From an uncultured Acidimicrobium sp. (GTDB taxonomy: Bacteria > Actinomycetota > Acidimicrobiia > Acidimicrobiales > Ilumatobacteraceae), in NCBI GenBank assembly GCA_903853285.1, contig CAINTF010000204.1:1-14562 (forward strand): a DNA stretch of 14,562 nucleotides. Direction: 5' to 3'. Every line of letters starts with the position of its first letter. The stretch's first letter is position 1. A model generated the notes under the pieces. The model made no database searches. It was not told the DNA's origin and was given only the letters and a program-made list of their open reading frames with translations. Positions 2,672 through 14,271 of this stretch are shown here, in pieces. The translations under genes and the position numbers were made by a program.

Positions 2672-3853
2672 ATGAAGATTGCAATAGTTGGTGGCGGAAT
2701 TGGCGGGCTTACTGCCGCTCTTGCACTTTCTCAAAGTTCTCATGAAATCACTGTCTTTGAACGTTCGGCAGGAATCAGAGAAATTGGCGCTGGCGTGCAA
2801 ATCAGCCCAAATGCTTCTCGTCTTTTACATTCGTTGGGTCTTGGCCGGGCATATTCAGAAATTGCGGTACATCCGCAACGAGTTATTTTTCGCCGTTGGG
2901 AAGATGACTCCATTCTTCGTACGGCAGACATTGACGACAGTTTCGTTGCGCAGCATCAGTTGCCGTTAGCGAATATTGCACGGAATGAATTGGTTGAAAT
3001 TCTTGGAGATGCGGTAGCGCAACAGTCAAATGTGACTTTGAAATTCTCCACACACGTTGTAGGGGTGGAACCAGGTGAATCATCATCGGCGGTTCGATTT
3101 TTCGATGGAACAAATCAATCCTTCGACATCGTCATTGGTGCCGATGGAATCCATTCCGTAGTTCGCCCATGTGTCGGCGGCCTAGATAAGCCCCGGTTTA
3201 GTGGCTCTGCTGCGTATCGCGCATTGGTCCCACGCAAGTTCGTGGAGGATCTACCAATTGATGTCACCAACCGCATGGGTCCAGATCGCCATGTGGTGAG
3301 TTATTTCATTGGACGTAATCGCAGTCATCTCAATCTGGTCTGTATCTCGCCTGAAGATTCGTGGGAAACCGAATCATGGACAGAGCAAGGAACAATTGAA
3401 GATCTGTATGCGCGATTTGAAGGTTGGTCACCCGAGTTTCTTTCACTGCTCGCCCGAGTCGAAGAACCAGTTTTCCGCTGGGCGTTATACGACCGCGAAC
3501 CACTTGAACAATGGGGAATAGGTACAACAACTTTGCTCGGTGATGCTTGCCATCCCATGCTTCCCTTCATGGCTCAAGGATCATGCCAAGCAATTGAAGA
3601 TGCAGTGGTTCTGGCACGTTGTCTATCTAATGTGAGCACAAGCGATGCCGCACTTGCCCTTCGTCGATATGAAAACGCACGTCAAGGTCGCACAGCTCAA
3701 GTGCAAACCTCATCGTTGATGAATCGTGATCTGTTCCACATGGTGGATGGTCAAGAACAAAAAGATCGCGATCTGTTTTTTTCGCTTACGCCACCAGGAA
3801 TGTCAATTCTTGATTGGGTCTTCGAATACGACGCACTCACTGTTGCCATTTAA
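2672..3853 (+). CDS. FAD-dependent aromatic monooxygenase, salicylate/6-hydroxynicotinate hydroxylase type
   Basis: This 393-residue protein is a class A flavoprotein monooxygenase. It shows the N-terminal dinucleotide fold IAIVGGGIGGLTAAL (residues 3-17) ending in the acidic VFERS, the DG motif IGADGIHSVVR (Asp158-Gly159) and the GD motif LLGDACHPMLPFMAQG (Gly290-Asp291) followed by a QAIEDAVVLA helix. Length and the HPMLPFMAQG segment fit the salicylate 1-hydroxylase / 3-hydroxybenzoate 6-hydroxylase / 6-hydroxynicotinate 3-monooxygenase group. It would hydroxylate an aromatic acid using NAD(P)H and O2. The exact substrate cannot be read from sequence. The ATG has an AAGGG Shine-Dalgarno 8 bases upstream. 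The 25-base gap to the acyl-CoA dehydrogenase supports co-transcription, although no shared pathway is obvious. Confidence 0.85.
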   Translation: MKIAIVGGGIGGLTAALALSQSSHEITVFERSAGIREIGAGVQISPNASRLLHSLGLGRAYSEIAVHPQRVIFRRWEDDSILRTADIDDSFVAQHQLPLANIARNELVEILGDAVAQQSNVTLKFSTHVVGVEPGESSSAVRFFDGTNQSFDIVIGADGIHSVVRPCVGGLDKPRFSGSAAYRALVPRKFVEDLPIDVTNRMGPDRHVVSYFIGRNRSHLNLVCISPEDSWETESWTEQGTIEDLYARFEGWSPEFLSLLARVEEPVFRWALYDREPLEQWGIGTTTLLGDACHPMLPFMAQGSCQAIEDAVVLARCLSNVSTSDAALALRRYENARQGRTAQVQTSSLMNRDLFHMVDGQEQKDRDLFFSLTPPGMSILDWVFEYDALTVAI

Positions 3854-7643: not shown

Positions 7644-8502
7644 ATTGGTTGATGGGACTCGGTTGTGGTTTGACATAGACGGAGTTGGGCTGATGCCTGA
7701 CGGCGATGTGATGCGCCAGCGCCCGACTTTGATCGTGATGCACGGTGGGCCTGGTGGCGACCACAACGGCTTCAAGCCAGCTTTTTCTGCCATGACCGAT
7801 ACATGTCAGGTGTTGTATTACGACCACCGCGGACACGGCAGAAGCGACCGCAGCACGCCAGATAAATGGAATCTCAATCGTTGGGCCGATGATGTGGTCG
7901 AGATGTGTGCAGTGTTGGGAATTAAAAAACCGTTTGTGCTGGGTTTGAGTTTCGGCGGTTTTGTTGCACAACGAATTGCTTCACGACATCCTGGGTTCGC
8001 TAGTGGACATATTTTTTTGAGCACAGCAGCCTATAAAGATCGTGTTGCGGTCTACGAAATGTTTGGTCGATTAGGTGGGCCAGAAGCCGAAGCAACTGCG
8101 CGCGAGTTCTGGGAAGCACCGACTCCTGAAGCAATGGCGGCGGTTGTTGTCAAATACGTAACCATTTGCGGGCCGCTCTATACGCAAGCACCAGGAAATC
8201 ACTTTTTGAATAAGCGAACGATTAACAACAACGATGTCCTGACGCATTTCAATCACAACGAAGGGCCGGTCATGAATTTGTTGCCCGAACTTGCCGCTGT
8301 TCGTGAACCTGTGCTTGTCGCGCACGGAGAACTCGACCCAGTGACACCAATGATTGGTGCGCAACGCATTGTTGATGCGCTGCCCAAAGATCTAGTGAGA
8401 TTTGAGCGTTTTGCAGGTTCTGGTCACGGAGTGTTTCGTGATGAACCAGAAGCATTCTTTGCTGTGTTGCGCACATTTTTGAATGATCATCGGGGCGATT
8501 AA
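7633..8502 (+). CDS. Alpha/beta hydrolase, proline iminopeptidase-like
   Basis: This 289-residue protein has the alpha/beta hydrolase fold with a complete catalytic triad. The oxyanion segment is HGGPGG (37-42), the nucleophile Ser106 lies in GLSFGGF, the acid is Asp235 in HGELDPVTP and the base is His265 in GSGHGVF. HGGPG is the hallmark of proline iminopeptidases and relatives (peptidase S33). The same fold also includes ring-cleavage C-C hydrolases of the MhpC/BphD type, so a role with the nearby aromatic operon cannot be excluded, although HGGPG argues against it. No signal peptide is seen, so it is cytosolic. A GTG at 7627 could add two residues; I prefer ATG 7633 because of the AGGA/TAGGAT spacing. 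It is divergent from tdh and followed at 10 bases by an SRPBCC gene, probably co-transcribed. Confidence 0.85.
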
Positions 8503-8512
8503 AGTAATTCTC

Positions 8513-8971
8513 ATGACTTACAACGTGGCGGTAGTACGAGAAGTTTCAGCATCTCCAGAAAAAGTGTGGTCGCTCGTCACTGACTTGCCCCGCATGGGTG
8601 AATGGTCGCCCGAAAACCTTGGAGGCGAGTGGCTCGAGGATGCAACATGTGCCGCAGTTGGTGCAAAATTTAGAGGCAACAATAAGAACGGCGACAAGTC
8701 ATGGCAGGCAACTGTGAGAGTTGACGTTTGTGATGCACCAAACAAGTTTGTGTTCAGCCTCAATTACAAAGAGAATCATTTATGTGATTGGGTATTTGAA
8801 ATTGAACCAACAGCTAGCGGCAGTCGTGTGACGCATGCATGGGTTGCGGGAACACATTGGGAACAATTTGCACCATTTGGCAAGGACATCAGTGGAGTTG
8901 AAGACCGTGCCACTCACAACCTTCGCAATATGGGTGTCACGCTCGACAACCTAGTAAACACGTTGAAATAA
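8513..8971 (+). CDS. SRPBCC family protein (START/polyketide-cyclase-like), copy 1
   Basis: This 152-residue protein has the SRPBCC helix-grip fold signature: an N-terminal strand with SASPEKVWSLVTDLPRMGEWSPE, then WLEDA, VGAKFRGNNKNG, a series of beta strands (WQATVRVDVCDAPNKFVFSL) and FEIEPTASGSRVTHAW, ending in a long C-terminal helix (DRATHNLRNMGVTLDNLVNTLK). Such proteins bind hydrophobic or aromatic ligands in a deep cavity; many are annotated as polyketide cyclases or dehydrases, but no enzymatic residue can be named here. The frame opens at 8483, but ATG 8513 is chosen because it aligns with the start of the paralogue at 13810. Identity to that copy is about 60% by eye. It lies 10 bases after the hydrolase stop, and only a weak AAAG precedes it. 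It converges on the MarR gene with a 20-base gap. Confidence 0.85.
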   Translation: MTYNVAVVREVSASPEKVWSLVTDLPRMGEWSPENLGGEWLEDATCAAVGAKFRGNNKNGDKSWQATVRVDVCDAPNKFVFSLNYKENHLCDWVFEIEPTASGSRVTHAWVAGTHWEQFAPFGKDISGVEDRATHNLRNMGVTLDNLVNTLK

Positions 8972-8991: not shown

Positions 8992-9525
8992 CTATTTACG
9001 TAATGAACCTGTTCGCACACTCGTAGACGTCTGGTCTTCGACGTTTCGAATCAGTTGATCTATCACTCGCGTAAAGGCTGCAAGATCCGCCGGCTTCACT
9101 CCATCCAAAATGTCGGCCGAATGTTGAGCGGCGAATTCAATACCAAGGTCGGCAATTCTGCGCCCTTTCGCGGTGATGCGAACAAGTGAAATTCTGCGAT
9201 CATTTGGGTCGCTCAGTCTCACGATATGCCCCATTTTTTCCAACCGAGAAAGTCGATTAGTTAAACCACTCGGAGTGATCATTGCTAACACGGCTATTTC
9301 TGTAGGCATTAAGACGCCGTTTTTTCCGTGACGGCGCAGAGTTGCGAGCACATCAAATTCGCCAAGTGTGACGCCAAGGTTCAACATATGTTGATTCGTT
9401 ATCTCAAGTTGTTTTGTGACGAGAAGGTTGACCTTCAGGGCAGTTGACATTGCAGTGAAGTCGATGTCAGACCGTTCGACTGACCAAGTAGCAACTGTCT
9501 GTTTGACGAGATCCGAAATTTTCAT
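8992..9525 (-). CDS. MarR-family transcriptional regulator
   Basis: This 177-residue protein has the MarR winged-helix layout: N-terminal dimerisation helices (TWSVERSDIDFTAMSTALKV, then LVTKQLEITNQHMLNLGVTLGEFDVLATLRRHG), the helix-turn-helix MPTEIAVLAMITPSGLTNRLSRLEK (about 73-97), the wing GHIVRLSDPNDRRISLVRITAKGR and C-terminal dimerisation helices. The DPNDRR wing is the family hallmark. It probably represses itself and the divergent aromatic operon, with release by an aromatic substrate, an intermediate or its CoA ester. The frame is open to 9585, but that start would overlap the divergent gene, so ATG 9525 is taken. No well-spaced Shine-Dalgarno is present (AGGA is only one base from the ATG). 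A TAAGTT box seven bases upstream suggests a leaderless start. A 21-bp inverted repeat in the spacer is its likely operator. Confidence 0.92.
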   Translation of the reverse strand: MKISDLVKQTVATWSVERSDIDFTAMSTALKVNLLVTKQLEITNQHMLNLGVTLGEFDVLATLRRHGKNGVLMPTEIAVLAMITPSGLTNRLSRLEKMGHIVRLSDPNDRRISLVRITAKGRRIADLGIEFAAQHSADILDGVKPADLAAFTRVIDQLIRNVEDQTSTSVRTGSLRK

Positions 9526-9532
9526 ATCCTGC

Positions 9533-9538
9533 AACTTA
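9533..9538 (-). promoter_or_regulatory. Candidate -10 box of the MarR gene
   Basis: On the minus strand TAAGTT lies seven bases before the ATG at 9525. The -35 region would fall inside the inverted repeat at 9550-9570 and has no good match, so binding there would also block this promoter. This is a tentative assignment. Confidence 0.35.
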
Positions 9539-9547
9539 GCATTTAGT

Positions 9548-9577
9548 TTGACATCAAATATTTTGATGTCGTAGTAT
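9548..9577 (+). promoter_or_regulatory. Promoter of the aromatic catabolic operon
   Basis: A perfect TTGACA -35 (9548-9553) is followed by an 18-base spacer and TAGTAT -10 (9572-9577). The ATG of the FAA-hydrolase gene begins six bases after the -10 box at 9584, so transcription should start at or beside the start codon. The inverted repeat at 9550-9570 fills the spacer. Confidence 0.65.
9550..9570. promoter_or_regulatory. Candidate MarR operator (21-bp inverted repeat)
   Basis: Arms GACATCAAA (9550-9558) and TTTGATGTC (9562-9570) are perfect 9-bp inverted repeats around a 3-base TAT centre. Size, AT-rich centre and position in the MarR/operon divergent spacer match typical MarR operators. 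It overlaps the last four bases of the -35 box and ends one base before the -10 box, so a bound dimer would exclude RNA polymerase. I see no second full copy in the window. Confidence 0.75.
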
Positions 9578-9583
9578 CTCAGC

Positions 9584-10447
9584 ATGTCATTTATTTTGGG
9601 GAATATTGGAGACCGGGCTGTCCTGATCGAAGGTGATTCCTATTTTGATATCGAGACTTTGAGCAATGGAATGCTTTCAAGTGATCCGATGCAGTCAATT
9701 TCGTCTTTTGCATCGCTGCATCTGCTTTCAGATTCACTGAAAGACTCCGTGCCAACCGGCAAGGTTTCAAGCGTCAATCTTGGTCCACCGGTTCCAAGGC
9801 CACAAAAGAGTTTTGCTGTAGGTCTCAACTTTAAGAGTCATGCAGATGAGTCAAATATGCAACTCCCGACCAATCCCTTGGTATTCACCAAATTTCCTTC
9901 TTGTTTGGTTGGTGCCAACTCTGATATCGAGATGCGCTCAGATGGAGTTGATTACGAAGCTGAGCTAGTTGTGGTCATCGGTGTCGGTGGGAAAGACATT
10001 GATAAGAAAAATGCTTGGAATCACGTTGCGGGCGTGACGATCGGCCAAGACATCTCTGACCGGTTTGCACAATTTGCCGCACAGCCGCCACATTTTGATT
10101 TAGGCAAATCCTTCGACACGTTTGGGCCAATCGGACCGTTTGTTTATTCAACCGATCACTTTTCGGATCTAGATGACTTTCAATTAACGACTGACGTCAA
10201 TGGCGAAATCCGTCAAAGTGATACAACCAAAAATTTAATCTTTGATGTACCGACTCTGATTGAGTACTTGTCTCGGATCACGACTCTGGTGCCAGGTGAC
10301 ATTATTTTCACTGGAACACCAGATGGCATCGGTGCTGCTCAAGGCAAATTTCTTAAGGATGGCGACATCATTACAACGACTATCGCAGGCATCGGCACGA
10401 TGATTAATCATTGTCGCCGAGTGAGCGACTATGTGAAAGGAGCATAA
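9584..10447 (+). CDS. Fumarylacetoacetate hydrolase family enzyme
   Basis: This 287-residue protein has an N-terminal region of about 70 residues and then the FAH catalytic domain: FAVGLNFKSHADE (77-89), the metal ligands Glu125 and Glu127 in DYEAELVVVIG, Asp156 in GQDISDRFAQF, the GKSFDTFGPIGPFV segment, VNGEIRQ and FTGTPDGIG (252-260). These are the Mg-binding carboxylates and signature segments of FAH-superfamily isomerases, decarboxylases and hydrolases. Members act on ring-cleavage products, for example 2-hydroxyhepta-2,4-diene-1,7-dioate isomerase, 4-oxalocrotonate decarboxylase, 2-hydroxypentadienoate hydratase and acylpyruvate hydrolases. Here it should process the product of the dioxygenase encoded 2 bases downstream. 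Which of these reactions it performs is not decided by sequence. It is the first gene of the MarR-flanked operon and its start looks leaderless. Confidence 0.88.
   Translation: MSFILGNIGDRAVLIEGDSYFDIETLSNGMLSSDPMQSISSFASLHLLSDSLKDSVPTGKVSSVNLGPPVPRPQKSFAVGLNFKSHADESNMQLPTNPLVFTKFPSCLVGANSDIEMRSDGVDYEAELVVVIGVGGKDIDKKNAWNHVAGVTIGQDISDRFAQFAAQPPHFDLGKSFDTFGPIGPFVYSTDHFSDLDDFQLTTDVNGEIRQSDTTKNLIFDVPTLIEYLSRITTLVPGDIIFTGTPDGIGAAQGKFLKDGDIITTTIAGIGTMINHCRRVSDYVKGA
10436..10442 (+). promoter_or_regulatory. Shine-Dalgarno deciding the dioxygenase start
   Basis: AAAGGAG lies seven bases before the ATG at 10450 and overlaps the last codons of the FAA-hydrolase gene. It rules for 10450 over the in-frame upstream start at 10411. 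Confidence 0.8.
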
Positions 10448-10449
10448 GC

Positions 10450-11403
10450 ATGGCACTGAATGGATTACTCGACATTGACTTAGCGGTAAAGAATCCACAG
10501 GAACTTTGCGAGTTCTGGGGGCGACATGGACTCAATAGTCCGTCTGATGGCGTGCTTGGAACTGATGACCGAAAGAAACAAATCACTGTGATCGAGGATG
10601 ACTACCGCCATCTCGATGCATTGCACTTAAGTTGCGAGTTTGAAAGCGATTTAGCAGCGATTGCTCAACGTATTGGAGAGATGGGCGTAGAGTCAAAAAT
10701 TAGTGGAACCAATCTGAGCTGTGTGGATCCAATATTTGGTCACCGAATTTCGATTGACGTTGGAGCTGCACCATCATTGAAACAAAATCCCGAGCGAGTC
10801 TCTAACTCACCAGGACGCAATCAACGTGTTGGCACACGAGCAGAGGTATTGCTTGAGACTGCGTCCCGTCGACCTCGTCGGCTTGGACACGTTGTGCTCG
10901 CAACACCGCATTTCGAGAAGGCAACAGCGTTTTATGTCGATGGAATTGGGTTTCGAGTCTCGGATCAAGTTTTGAATGGAATAGCGACATTTATGCGTTG
11001 TGAGTCGGACCATCACAACTTCTTCATTCATCCTGGATTTACCAGTCATCTCAACCACTATGCGCTTGAGGTAGATGATGTCGATGCAATTGGCAAGTTG
11101 GGTATGGAGGTGCTGGCCGAACGTCCAGATGCAAACGTGGTCGGAATCGGTCGACACAACTTGGGCGCCAACATCTTTTGGTATCTCACCGACCCTTCAG
11201 GGAACATGTTTGAGTTTTTCTCTGACATGGATCAGATCACTGATGACGAAGCATGGGAAAGAGATTTCTGCAAGCGAGATTGGGAAGGTGCAGATGGACC
11301 GGCCGGATTTTCGGTGTGGGGGCCAAAGGAACCTGAAAGTTTTATTAACCAACCTGATCTATTCGAAATTGCAGCAGCTCGTGAAGCTCGCGGACTGATT
11401 TAA
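10450..11403 (+). CDS. Type I extradiol ring-cleavage dioxygenase (VOC superfamily)
   Basis: This 317-residue protein has two vicinal-oxygen-chelate modules: a degenerate N-terminal one (about 1-110) and a catalytic C-terminal one (about 143-265). The 2-His-1-carboxylate iron site is complete: His147 (RRLGHVVLAT), His203 (SHLNHYALEVDD) and Glu255 (GNMFEFFSD). His188/His189 in SDHHNFFIHP and Tyr245 in IFWYLTDPSG sit where the second-sphere acid/base His and Tyr of BphC-type enzymes are found, and GRHNLGANIFWY is a family segment. It should open a catechol-type ring next to the hydroxyls (meta-cleavage) with Fe(II) and O2. The substrate could be a 2,3-dihydroxyphenyl compound or catechol derivative; this cannot be fixed from sequence. 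It sits between the FAA-hydrolase gene (2-base gap) and the SDR gene (9-base gap). Confidence 0.88.
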   Translation: MALNGLLDIDLAVKNPQELCEFWGRHGLNSPSDGVLGTDDRKKQITVIEDDYRHLDALHLSCEFESDLAAIAQRIGEMGVESKISGTNLSCVDPIFGHRISIDVGAAPSLKQNPERVSNSPGRNQRVGTRAEVLLETASRRPRRLGHVVLATPHFEKATAFYVDGIGFRVSDQVLNGIATFMRCESDHHNFFIHPGFTSHLNHYALEVDDVDAIGKLGMEVLAERPDANVVGIGRHNLGANIFWYLTDPSGNMFEFFSDMDQITDDEAWERDFCKRDWEGADGPAGFSVWGPKEPESFINQPDLFEIAAAREARGLI

Positions 11404-11412
11404 AGAACTGAC

Positions 11413-12192
11413 ATGGATCTCGGAATAGCAAAACGTCACGCAATATTGCTCGCTTCAAGTAGGGGGCTCGGTCGTGCATGCGCCGAAAGCCTTGCACGAG
11501 AAGGGGTGAATGTCGTGATCAACGGTCGCACAGCTGACGATGTGCACCGTGCCGTAGATGAAATAACGAGTAGGTACAAAGTAAGTGCCAAAGGTGTCGT
11601 CGGCGATTCTTCAACGTCTGAAGTTCAGGAGCAGTTGATCGCAGCTTGTGACTCTCCGGACATCGTTTTGTTAAACGGTGAAGGTCCATCTCCAAAAATG
11701 TTTCAGGACATTACGGAAAATGATTTGCAAGAATCCATTGAGCGAGCCCTCACTGCGCCACTCATGTTTTTACAGCGGGTTATTCCTGGAATGTGTGAGC
11801 GAAAATTCGGTCGAATTATCGCGATCAGTTCAGCAATGGTTAAATCACCAAACCCAGCGATGTCACTTTCGCACGGACCGCGTCTTGGACTAACTGGAGT
11901 TCTGAAAGGACTTTCGAAAGACCTTGCAAAATTTAACGTCACCGTTAATCAATTGCTGCCAGAGCGATTTGATACCTACCGTCAGGAACAAATGGCTCAA
12001 ATCGTGATGCAAGTGCGTGGTGTTACTTACGAAGAGGCTCGGGCAGATCAAATCAAGTCAATTAAGGCTGGCCGGCTGGGAAAACCAGAAGAGTTTGGTG
12101 ATGCATTCGCGTTTTTGTGTTCTGCTCAAGCTGGCTATATCAGCGGACAAAACTTGCAACTTGATGGCGGCAGTTACGAAGGCGTTTTCTAG
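11413..12192 (+). CDS. Atypical short-chain dehydrogenase/reductase (YxxxK pair missing)
   Basis: This 259-residue protein has a clear SDR Rossmann fold: the nucleotide loop ILLASSRGLGRA (11-22), VINGRTADD, the strand-4 segment IVLLNGEGP in place of NNAG, GRIIAISS (133-140) and the C-terminal GRLGKPEEFGDAFAFLCS plus YISGQNLQLDGG. At the active site the canonical Tyr-x-x-x-Lys is replaced: aligning on the following GLTG segment puts Met150 and His154 where Tyr and Lys belong. Ser140 is kept. This matches a known BKR-like SDR subgroup that lacks the standard catalytic tetrad, so the variation is a subgroup trait and not random decay. It may still bind NAD(P), but a classical alcohol/ketone redox mechanism is unlikely. 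It is inside the aromatic operon, with AAAGAA as a weak Shine-Dalgarno, so a dedicated role with a ring or ring-cleavage intermediate is inferred. Confidence 0.85.
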   Translation: MDLGIAKRHAILLASSRGLGRACAESLAREGVNVVINGRTADDVHRAVDEITSRYKVSAKGVVGDSSTSEVQEQLIAACDSPDIVLLNGEGPSPKMFQDITENDLQESIERALTAPLMFLQRVIPGMCERKFGRIIAISSAMVKSPNPAMSLSHGPRLGLTGVLKGLSKDLAKFNVTVNQLLPERFDTYRQEQMAQIVMQVRGVTYEEARADQIKSIKAGRLGKPEEFGDAFAFLCSAQAGYISGQNLQLDGGSYEGVF

Positions 12193-12207
12193 AAATTGAT
12201 TTGGGTA

Positions 12208-13788
12208 ATGCCTAAGAACTCAATAGATATTCTCATCGTTGGTGCCGGACCTGTTGGACTTACCGGCGCGTTAATTGCACACGAGCTTGGTCTTTCTGTT
12301 CGCATCATTGAACGTCGACCAACTGCACAAAGCGCACCAGCAGCACATGTCATCAATGCGCGTACGTTTGAGATTTGGAAACAAATTGGACTTGATGTCG
12401 AAAAAATCCGAAGTACTGCGCAATCACCAGAACAAGCAGGTTTTGTTCATTGGGTTACTCGCCTTGGCGAAAAAGTATTAGGAACATTGCAATATGAACA
12501 ACAAGGTGATGACAATTTGAGTGTTACACCAACGCCGCTTCGAAACCTTTCGCAGCATTTGCTTGAGCCATTGCTTGTCTCTGAATTAAAGAATCGTGGA
12601 ATCGGCGTTGAATACGCATCAACTTGGGAGGCATACGAAGAAGGCCCTGATGGCGTAATTTCTTCGGTTGCAATCGATGGTCAGAACGAAAAGATTTCCA
12701 GCAAGTGGCTCATCGCATGTGACGGCGCATCAAGCAGTGTTCGCAATGCATGTGGTATTTCGATGATTGGTCCCGACAATTTGCAGAAATTTTTCATGGT
12801 TCACTTTAAGGCCGACCTCAAATCACTGACTGCTTCAAATCCTGGCGTTCTGTATTGGATCTGTGATCCTCGCGCAGGTGGAACCTTGATTTCGCACGGA
12901 GGCGACAACGAGTGGGTATATATGTATCCAATCGCAGAAGGAAATGAAGTGCAGATTTCTCCATCCGAGTGTGATCAGTTGATTCGCAATGCAATTGCGC
13001 CAACAAGTGCAACAATTACGGTACTTCGACAATCTTCTTGGACTATGACTTCACAAATTGCGGACTCATATCGATTGAGTCGCGTATTGCTCGCAGGAGA
13101 TGCTGCACACAGGTTTCCACCGTCCGGGGGAATGGGTCTGAACACCGGAGTAGGCGATATTCATAATTTGATGTGGAAAATAGATCGAATTGAGGCTGGA
13201 GTAGCGGACTTAGCGCTACTGGACACATATGAGAAAGAACGCCGACCAATCGCTGAACGAAATGCGCAAGCAAGCATGGACAACGCGTTCAAAATGTTTG
13301 AGGTGTTTATGGCTCTTGGAGTTGACGCAGACACAGAAGTCGCGTTCGCAAACCTCAATAGAGTGCTCGAAGATGCTGAAGCCATGAAAGTTCTGGACCA
13401 AGCGATTCAGAATCAAGCGACACATTTCGACATGCTTGGATTGCAAATTGGTTATCGATACATTCTTCCGACCTCGACAACTGAGCTTGAGCCACTCACT
13501 GATGAAATCATTCGTAATTATCGCCCATCGGTCGAGGTGGGCAATCGACTTCCACATGGTTGGCTCGAGCGAAACGGTGAAAAAATATCGTCGTTGGATC
13601 TTGTCAGTTTGGATGACTACTCGATCATTGGAGGTTTGGAGTTTTCGAGCGATTTACCGCACATCAAAATCGGTCGAGATGTTCAAGACACCGATAACTG
13701 GTGGTCACAGACTCTTGGTTTGTCATCCACTGAAGGATTACTTATTCGCCCAGACCAGCACATTGAACTGCGCCTTTCCAGTAACTAA
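12208..13788 (+). CDS. FAD-dependent aromatic hydroxylase, MhpA/TfdB/PheA type
   Basis: This 526-residue protein has the class A flavin monooxygenase layout: DILIVGAGPVGLTGALIA near the N-terminus ending in IIERRP, the DG motif WLIACDGASSSVRN (Asp172-Gly173), the GD motif VLLAGDAAHRFPPSGGMGLNTG (Gly297-Asp298) with GDIHNLMWKI, and a C-terminal region (about 430-526) where this subfamily has a thioredoxin-like domain. HRFPPSGGMGLNTG is characteristic of the phenol hydroxylase/MhpA group and differs from the salicylate-hydroxylase type encoded at 2672. It should hydroxylate a phenolic substrate to a catechol with NAD(P)H and O2, supplying the extradiol dioxygenase. A TTG at 12196 would add four residues; ATG 12208 gives the usual short N-terminus before the beta strand. 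Shine-Dalgarno is weak. It is the last enzyme gene of the operon. Confidence 0.88.
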   Translation: MPKNSIDILIVGAGPVGLTGALIAHELGLSVRIIERRPTAQSAPAAHVINARTFEIWKQIGLDVEKIRSTAQSPEQAGFVHWVTRLGEKVLGTLQYEQQGDDNLSVTPTPLRNLSQHLLEPLLVSELKNRGIGVEYASTWEAYEEGPDGVISSVAIDGQNEKISSKWLIACDGASSSVRNACGISMIGPDNLQKFFMVHFKADLKSLTASNPGVLYWICDPRAGGTLISHGGDNEWVYMYPIAEGNEVQISPSECDQLIRNAIAPTSATITVLRQSSWTMTSQIADSYRLSRVLLAGDAAHRFPPSGGMGLNTGVGDIHNLMWKIDRIEAGVADLALLDTYEKERRPIAERNAQASMDNAFKMFEVFMALGVDADTEVAFANLNRVLEDAEAMKVLDQAIQNQATHFDMLGLQIGYRYILPTSTTELEPLTDEIIRNYRPSVEVGNRLPHGWLERNGEKISSLDLVSLDDYSIIGGLEFSSDLPHIKIGRDVQDTDNWWSQTLGLSSTEGLLIRPDQHIELRLSSN

Positions 13789-13809: not shown

Positions 13810-14271
13810 ATGACACAACCTGCACCAGTTTCGGTAACACGAGAGTTTTCTGCATCACCTGACAAAGTGTGGGCACTCGTCACTGACTTGCCTCGGATGG
13901 GTGAATGGTCGCCAGAAAACCAGGGTGGCAAGTGGGCTAAGGGAGCAACCGGACCAGCTGTTGGCGCAATATTCAAGGGCCGAAACAAAAACGGCAAGAA
14001 GGCTTGGGGCACAAACGTCAAAGTCAATGCATGCGATGCTCCAAAGAAATTTTCTTTCGGACTGATGGTCTTCGGAAACAACTGGTGTGATTGGGTGTAC
14101 GAAATTGAGCCGACTGCTGCAGGCAGCAGAGTGACACACAGCTGGATTGATCACCGTGGTGGTATCAGCTCTTTTCTTGGCAAACTCGTAAGCGGTGTTG
14201 CCGACCGAGCAACGCATAACAAAAAGAACATGGAAATCACCATGGACAACCTTGCGAAGGCAGCGAACTAA
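13810..14271 (+). CDS. SRPBCC family protein (START/polyketide-cyclase-like), copy 2
   Basis: This 153-residue paralogue of the protein encoded at 8513 is about 60% identical by eye, with the same order of motifs: SASPDKVWALVTDLPRMGEWSPE, ATGPAVGAIFKGRNKNG, VNACDAPKKFSFGL, CDWVYEIEPTAAGSRVTHSW and the C-terminal helix DRATHNKKNMEITMDNLAK. The copies differ most in the loop between the last strand and the final helix, which lines the cavity mouth in this fold, so their ligands may differ. The start at 13810 fits both the family N-terminus and the TATGGT box. It lies 21 bases after the hydroxylase, so it may belong to the aromatic operon, have its own promoter, or both. A ligand-binding or cyclase-like role for an aromatic intermediate is inference only. 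Confidence 0.85.
   Translation: MTQPAPVSVTREFSASPDKVWALVTDLPRMGEWSPENQGGKWAKGATGPAVGAIFKGRNKNGKKAWGTNVKVNACDAPKKFSFGLMVFGNNWCDWVYEIEPTAAGSRVTHSWIDHRGGISSFLGKLVSGVADRATHNKKNMEITMDNLAKAAN

Follow-up and report, generated by a model that had tools for sequence, protein, structure and literature searches.

A question raised by this locus is how two back-to-back genes, one encoding a MarR-family regulator and the other heading an operon of putative aromatic metabolism, might be governed from a gap of 58 nucleotides, and whether the regulator would bind there at one operator or at two. The gap lies in a contig of an uncultured Acidimicrobium sp.; the window, that is, the whole stretch of DNA analysed, is 14,562 nucleotides long. 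The original prediction placed one MarR operator, a perfect inverted repeat, exactly between the -35 and -10 boxes of a leaderless operon promoter, where it could repress the genes on both sides. The part of that prediction which makes the gap a shared regulatory block of the MarR gene and the divergent operon stands; the single operator is probably better read as two that overlap. The reading we favor, to which we assign a probability of about 0.6, is that the gap is a bidirectional autorepression switch with two overlapping palindromes (O1 and O2), a leaderless operon and release by a ligand.

Layout and conservation of the gap

The inverted repeat of the original prediction is present, with arms GACATCAAA (9550-9558) and TTTGATGTC (9562-9570) that pair at every position. 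When 20,000 spacers of 58 nt were simulated by a first-order Markov model from the dinucleotides of the real one, 54 contained a comparable repeat, defined as a perfect inverted repeat of at least 9 bp with a loop of at most 10, and the whole window contains no second inverted repeat of at least 9 bp with a loop of that size. The predicted TTGACA/TAGTAT promoter was also found, with an 18-nt spacer and 10 of 12 matches to the consensus hexamers, and the operon ATG indeed lies six bases past the -10 box. The promoter scan by itself performs at chance level (2 promoters found in 9001-10000 versus 1.2 expected), and we regard the operon promoter as credible because it is conserved in relatives. 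The predicted nesting of the repeat exactly between the two boxes was wrong: the last four bases of the -35 hexamer (GACA, 9550-9553) are shared with the left arm, and the right arm ends one base before the -10 hexamer.

Two 18-bp PecS-type sites can be placed over the same bases, with cores that start 15 bp apart (Table 1). O1 covers the operon -35 box together with the putative -35 region of marR, and O2 overlaps the operon -10 box. Both are putative operators, and the one TTGANNTCAA core that the window contains is no more than chance would give (mean of 0.76 expected). As a separate observation, TATTTTGATATCG at 9641-9653, inside the FAA-hydrolase gene, repeats 12 of the 13 bases of 9559-9571 and may be either chance or an extra site.

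Table 1. Features of the divergent gap and of the genes on either side of it
Feature	Position	Strand	Size or centre	Remarks
MarR-family regulator	8992..9525	-	177 aa	ATG at 9525; Pfam MarR E 1.3e-10
Divergent intergenic region (entire putative switch)	9526..9583		58 nt	between the marR ATG (9525, minus) and the operon ATG (9584, plus)
Candidate marR -10 box TAAGTT	9533..9538	-		7 nt before ATG
O1, 18-bp PecS-type site	9544..9561		centre 9552.5	candidate operator; core TTGACATCAA 9548-9557
Operon -35 box TTGACA	9548..9553	+		promoter scan
Perfect 9-bp inverted repeat, 3-nt centre	9550..9570		centre 9560	arms 9/9 complementary
O2, 18-bp PecS-type site	9559..9576		centre 9567.5	candidate operator; core TTGATGTCGT 9563-9572
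Operon -10 box TAGTAT	9572..9577	+		promoter scan; TACTAT in many relatives
FAA-hydrolase family enzyme, first gene of the operon	9584..10447	+		Pfam E 3.7e-61; apparently leaderless
VOC / type-I extradiol dioxygenase-like protein	10450..11403	+		start codon chosen from relatives' starts; ORF from 10411
Short-chain dehydrogenase	11413..12192	+		family profile matches
FAD-dependent monooxygenase, aromatic-hydroxylase type	12196..13788	+		Pfam FAD_binding_3 E 2.4e-75; start approximate

Homologous loci were drawn from 100 relatives, 221 genomes of the family, 397 genomes of the order and a named genome collection, in which the nearest relatives are records of Acidimicrobium, Acidimicrobiaceae and other Actinobacteria; we call the group acidimicrobial. 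Removal of identical sequences left 50 distinct regions upstream of related marR genes, and 42 of them passed a score against the promoter-operator consensus, retaining promoter and site. Conservation in orthologous spacers, which are similar in length to the 58-nt gap, was the test that the original prediction had set for itself, and the block came through it. The eight rows left out of the counts on 42 are L190, L162, L185, L191, L161, L187, L188 and L194, among which L161 was poorly extracted and L162, L185, L187 and L188 retain the even-centred core by eye. In a gap-free anchoring of the 42 relatives, the columns between 9544 and 9579 are mostly more informative than the flanks, whose columns mostly hold less than 0.6 bit and in a few cases about 1 bit; the contrast is inflated because the rows were picked by their match to the consensus, and the scoring included O2 bases and may favor O2. 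The first two T residues of the -35 box are invariant in these rows, themselves aligned on this consensus. In the six closest divergent pairs of marR and FAA-hydrolase genes, the repeat keeps nine of nine pairs in four, eight in one and seven in one.

The composite repeat is associated with this marR gene across the family. Searched with at most one mismatch allowed, a degenerate composite pattern matched 34 sites spread over 33 of the 221 family genomes (the reversed control gave 0), and 33 of these sites lie beside a marR match by coordinates, the remaining one being 77 bp from a contig end. Of the 59 family genomes in which marR was matched at E 1e-24, 26 lack the composite, and some of these 26 keep O1 or O2 alone or no recognised site. 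Five of the 23 genomes of the genus have the marR orthologue, and it is these five that also have an FAA-hydrolase at 74% identity or more. A search of the organism's own genome (82% complete) for the 21-bp repeat with at most three mismatches returned the repeat itself, one site with three mismatches and nothing else, and a wider regulon is not supported because there is just that one other site.

Several deeper relatives (L068, L163, L168, L069, L071, L155 and L186) have a different first gene behind a leader with a Shine-Dalgarno-like string. They retain the promoter along with O1, O2 or both, so that the switch precedes different first genes. The locus is also found in L060, L061 and L072, metagenome-assembled contigs whose records are named Bifidobacterium breve and Ferrithrix thermotolerans and look mislabelled.

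The operon start looks leaderless, as originally predicted, to judge from the spacing of its sequence elements. In 30 of the 42 relatives the first ATG or GTG falls 5-7 nt past the -10 box and a Shine-Dalgarno-like string is lacking; 7 combine such a string with a first ATG or GTG at 18-21 nt, and 5 show neither arrangement. The marR start is possibly leaderless too. A TANNNT hexamer stands 6-7 nt before it in 36 of the 42 when the best of six offsets is chosen, with at least four TATAAT positions in 23 of the 42 versus 27% of shuffles, and the counterparts of the marR -10 box in relatives read TATAAT, TAGAAT or TACAGT. A short Shine-Dalgarno-like string precedes the marR start in 9 of the 42, including the window (a weak AGGA). 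The claim that the repeat covers the -35 region of marR holds if TAAGTT, a candidate, is the marR -10 box; a good -35 hexamer for the marR promoter was not seen in the window, and O1 sits where this unrecognisable box would be expected.

One operator or two

One possibility is that a single MarR dimer binds the 21-bp repeat centred on 9560 and represses both genes from that one operator. The perfect 9-bp arms, rarely matched in the Markov sequences, speak for it, and so does the scan of dyad centres over the 42 relatives, in which 9560 ranks first in mean symmetry, 9552.5 (O1) second and 9567.5 (O2) third. At least eight of nine pairs of the repeat are kept in 22 of the 42 relatives, and in the window the composite has 9/9 pairs versus 5/9 for each of O1 and O2. 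Since the composite is more symmetrical there than either unit, the single-site reading keeps an appreciable minority share, although we consider it unlikely. Against it are the nine of 42 relatives in which the composite is weak (at most 5/9 pairs): O1 is kept in three of them (8/9) and O2 in five (6-7/9), and L192 alone keeps neither. The even-centred unit is favored because eight of these nine retain O1 or O2.

More distant MarR homologues point the same way. Upstream loci numbering 66 were taken from the best 80 of 569 relatives, and 65 were long enough for core counts. The unit that recurs in them is an even-centred palindrome, TTGA-NN-TCAA with flanks ATC/GAT or GATAGT/ACTATC, whose core occurs with at most one mismatch in 30 of 65 loci (shuffles, 3.3). 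Enrichment is also seen for the odd-centred core TCAA-N5-TTGA, in 27 of the 65 loci versus 3.6, which counts against the two-site reading. Longer repeats separate the two: among 107 distant upstream regions, pooled from three sets with many related and not independent members, perfect repeats with arms of at least 7 are found at gap 2 in 16 loci versus 1.8 in shuffles and at gap 4 in 21 versus 2.2, with other even gaps likewise enriched, whereas odd gaps are at background (gap 3, 4 versus 3.6; gap 5, 1 versus 1.4). That these longer odd-centred repeats are not enriched speaks against a single operator, and on this ground we read the odd-centred core as the seam of tandem sites. The sites of PecS and MhqR are described as 18-bp or 9+9 bp palindromes (PMC6391409, PMC12893000), which is also at odds with a 21-bp operator. 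From these sequence comparisons, the elementary site in the relatives is more likely a compact even-centred palindrome with a TTGA-NN-TCAA core, as in PecS, and the 9-bp repeat at 9550-9570 is probably a composite of two overlapping PecS-type sites, O1 and O2.

Two further explanations were weighed. The block might be conserved simply as a promoter, or because a different regulator binds there, with its symmetry incidental; much of the conserved block does consist of promoter hexamers, and the promoter scan alone is at chance. This is made very improbable by the conserved bases inside the 18-nt spacer (e.g., 9556-9558, 9560 and 9562-9566), which fall outside the hexamers, by the position of nearly every composite site beside this marR gene, and by the recurrence of the core near distant marR relatives. 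It is also improbable that MarR activates the operon, or represses it while activating its own gene. Some MarR proteins are activators, according to a general statement in the CouR report (PMC4737184), but both candidate sites overlap the operon promoter hexamers, a position expected to block RNA polymerase, and no activator seems needed because the hexamers match so much of the consensus.

For the switch with two overlapping palindromes, we infer the following mechanism. A MarR dimer would bind each of O1 and O2, compact palindromes whose centres are 15 bp apart. The core of O1 contains the operon -35 box, the site would also span the -35 region of marR, and the right flank of O2 would coincide with the operon -10 box. 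Two dimers, placed on roughly opposite faces of the helix because 15 bp corresponds to about 1.4 helical turns, would shut both promoters together. Transcription of the operon would begin at its ATG or directly beside it, and the same may be true of marR. The repressor would be released by a small molecule connected with the operon, be it substrate, intermediate or product of the enzymes of the FAD monooxygenase, extradiol-dioxygenase-like and FAA-hydrolase types.

The 15-bp step in related loci

Upstream of distant MarR genes (L073-L138 and L195-L224), sites resembling TTGA-NN-TCAA overlap and repeat in steps of 15 bp. Few second cores turned up when they were counted by offset (3 at +15 and 4 at -15 versus 0.2 each, in 56 of the 65 loci; offsets 25 and 53, with 7 and 4, are also above expectation and unexplained), and for that reason we adopted a measure of self-similarity, by lag, of windows around the best core; relatedness among loci makes all of its z values overstate certainty. 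For the 65 distant loci in 23 genus groups, z was 11.4 at lag 15 and 4.3 at lag 30, and for 61 of the 65 loci in 24 groups it was 11.4 and 5.0, with the next lag at 2.5. Measured against random segments of the same loci, which show a 3-base period like that of coding DNA, lag 15 still reached 7.1 and lag 30, at 0.5, was not outstanding. Lag 15 is likewise highest in the 42 acidimicrobial regions, whose rows are closely related (z 16.1; next, lag 10 at 5.9).

A replicate of 30 actinobacterial loci, from a search that matched in 55 of 396 genomes, gave z 8.4 at lag 15, 7.2 in a rerun and 4.5 after removal of five close Streptomyces loci; several of the replicate loci show no recognisable site. 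In 12 loci from the Burkholderiales, the order of an Achromobacter genome, there was no 15-bp period (z 1.7), and the sites are mostly single by eye. Rouanet reportedly described in 2004 a PecS consensus made up of two elements at a distance of 15 bp, a statement on which our reading does not draw. Our search of the literature for MarR sites overlapping at 15 bp or on opposite faces, and for the motif letters, returned nothing on 15-bp phased MarR operators; subscription literature was mostly outside its scope, and their absence from print is unproven.

Tentatively, and with some doubt, we suggest that a branch of the MarR family extending from actinobacteria to alphaproteobacteria and cyanobacteria may use overlapping operators that are phased by 15 bp, place neighbouring dimers on roughly opposite helix faces and have flanking bases in common. 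In the window, such an array would be fused with the promoter between two leaderless back-to-back genes: one site would have the -35 box as its core, and the adjoining site would have the -10 box as its flank.

The regulator, its operon and known switches

The window protein has a MarR winged-helix domain, with scores of 41.4 bits for PF01047 and 41.2 bits for PF12802 that exceed the cut-offs of 24.6 and 27. Its nearest solved chains are 8ylf (6.8e-20), 8ylh (1.4e-16, as for 8yli and 8ylj) and then 3vb2 (1.4e-8). For the 8YLG entry, which has the same sequence as 8ylf, the publication named is that of Song 2024 on UrtR, and 8YLI and 8YLJ are given as PecS of P. atrosepticum (PMC12893000). The same source describes a (T/S)SGT element in the allosteric loop of UrtR proteins (PMC12893000); the loop of the window protein reads TPSG, and we rejected its assignment to the UrtR/PecS group on this ground. 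Of 22 related loci compared, duplicates included, 21 carry the form xPSG and one is without a match. The loop test is blunt, with [TS]SG[TS] matched in 7 of 66 distant loci and the loop-element pattern giving no motif in 20 of 30 actinobacterial replicate loci and 5 of 11 Burkholderiales loci.

The aromatic character of the operon is an inference at the level of enzyme families. The best solved relative of the FAA-hydrolase protein is a putative HpcE, and those of the FAD monooxygenase are 2,4-dichlorophenol and 2-hydroxybiphenyl monooxygenases. The VOC protein, whose best solved relative is a glyoxalase/bleomycin-resistance/dioxygenase protein, carries candidate metal-ligand motifs, which may be the His-His-Glu metal ligands of extradiol dioxygenases. 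In the scan of the four operon proteins, every NCBIfam match listed (up to 25 each for two of the proteins) stays below its curated cut-off, and no CoA ligase assignment was obtained. A second FAD monooxygenase gene lies away from the operon at 2672-3853; its best NCBIfam match, 3-hydroxybenzoate 6-monooxygenase, is below the cut-off.

The MarR-operon cassette is flanked by two SRPBCC-type genes in the same orientation (8483-8971 and 13810-14271), paralogues that are 62% identical over 145 positions. Genome G018 has the counterparts of these two genes (83% and 90%; L253) adjacent to each other with no cassette, an apparent empty site, and genome G016 has the gene order of the window on one contig that ends inside the second SRPBCC gene. 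This one empty site suggests that the cassette, some 4.8 kb long and with the switch inside it, was gained or lost as a unit.

The layout is of a known type, exemplified by CouR and PecS, and by analogy the window switch would work as these do. In Rhodococcus jostii RHA1, the divergent couN and couR genes share one inverted repeat, which overlaps both of their -35 boxes (PMC4737184). As proposed for the regulator in the window, CouR is a MarR repressor of an aromatic catabolic pathway acting on divergent promoters with a TTGACA-type -35 box (PMC4737184). As described there, however, the cou transcripts have leaders of 23-54 nt, whereas the window operon is apparently leaderless, and CouR uses a single repeat (ATTGA/TCAAT with a 5-bp spacer) where the window probably has two overlapping sites (PMC4737184). 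The two proteins are weakly similar (E 0.0077).

The PecS-pecM systems of Vibrio vulnificus and Agrobacterium fabrum also pair a MarR gene with a divergent target (PMC6391409, PMC12288460). According to these reports, VvPecS binds an 18-bp even-centred site, TATCTTTATATTAAGATA, in V. vulnificus, and PecS sites overlap in the A. fabrum pecM promoter (PMC6391409, PMC12288460). The window has the same divergent arrangement, and O1 and O2 have that even-centred 18-bp geometry but 5/9 pairs each; PecM, in contrast, is an efflux pump, and the ligands of PecS are urate and xanthine (PMC6391409, PMC12288460). MhqR, a MarR repressor that senses quinones, is described with a 9+9 bp even-centred palindrome (TATCTCGAA-ATCGAAATA), but it is a Firmicute protein with other target genes (PMC12893000), and its likeness to the window protein is at the level of the MarR family. 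SCO3205 of Streptomyces coelicolor is, like the window protein, an actinobacterial MarR protein with sites upstream of its own gene (consensus TTnAAnnnTCAA); these sites were predicted by orthologue comparison and confirmed by SPR, and a crystal structure with DNA is reported (PMC3737563). Unlike O1 and O2, the two SCO3205 sites are separate and do not overlap, as presented in that report (PMC3737563).

The gap offers a delimited and testable switch in a lineage known here from metagenome-assembled contigs only, and switch and operon appear to move together as one discrete module. More broadly, our analysis suggests that a conspicuous perfect repeat may mark the junction of two operators and not be an operator in its own right, which would change the footprint to be expected. 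The 15-bp phasing is the part worth following: if it is general in this branch of the MarR family, paired binding would be predictable from sequence alone for many regulators.
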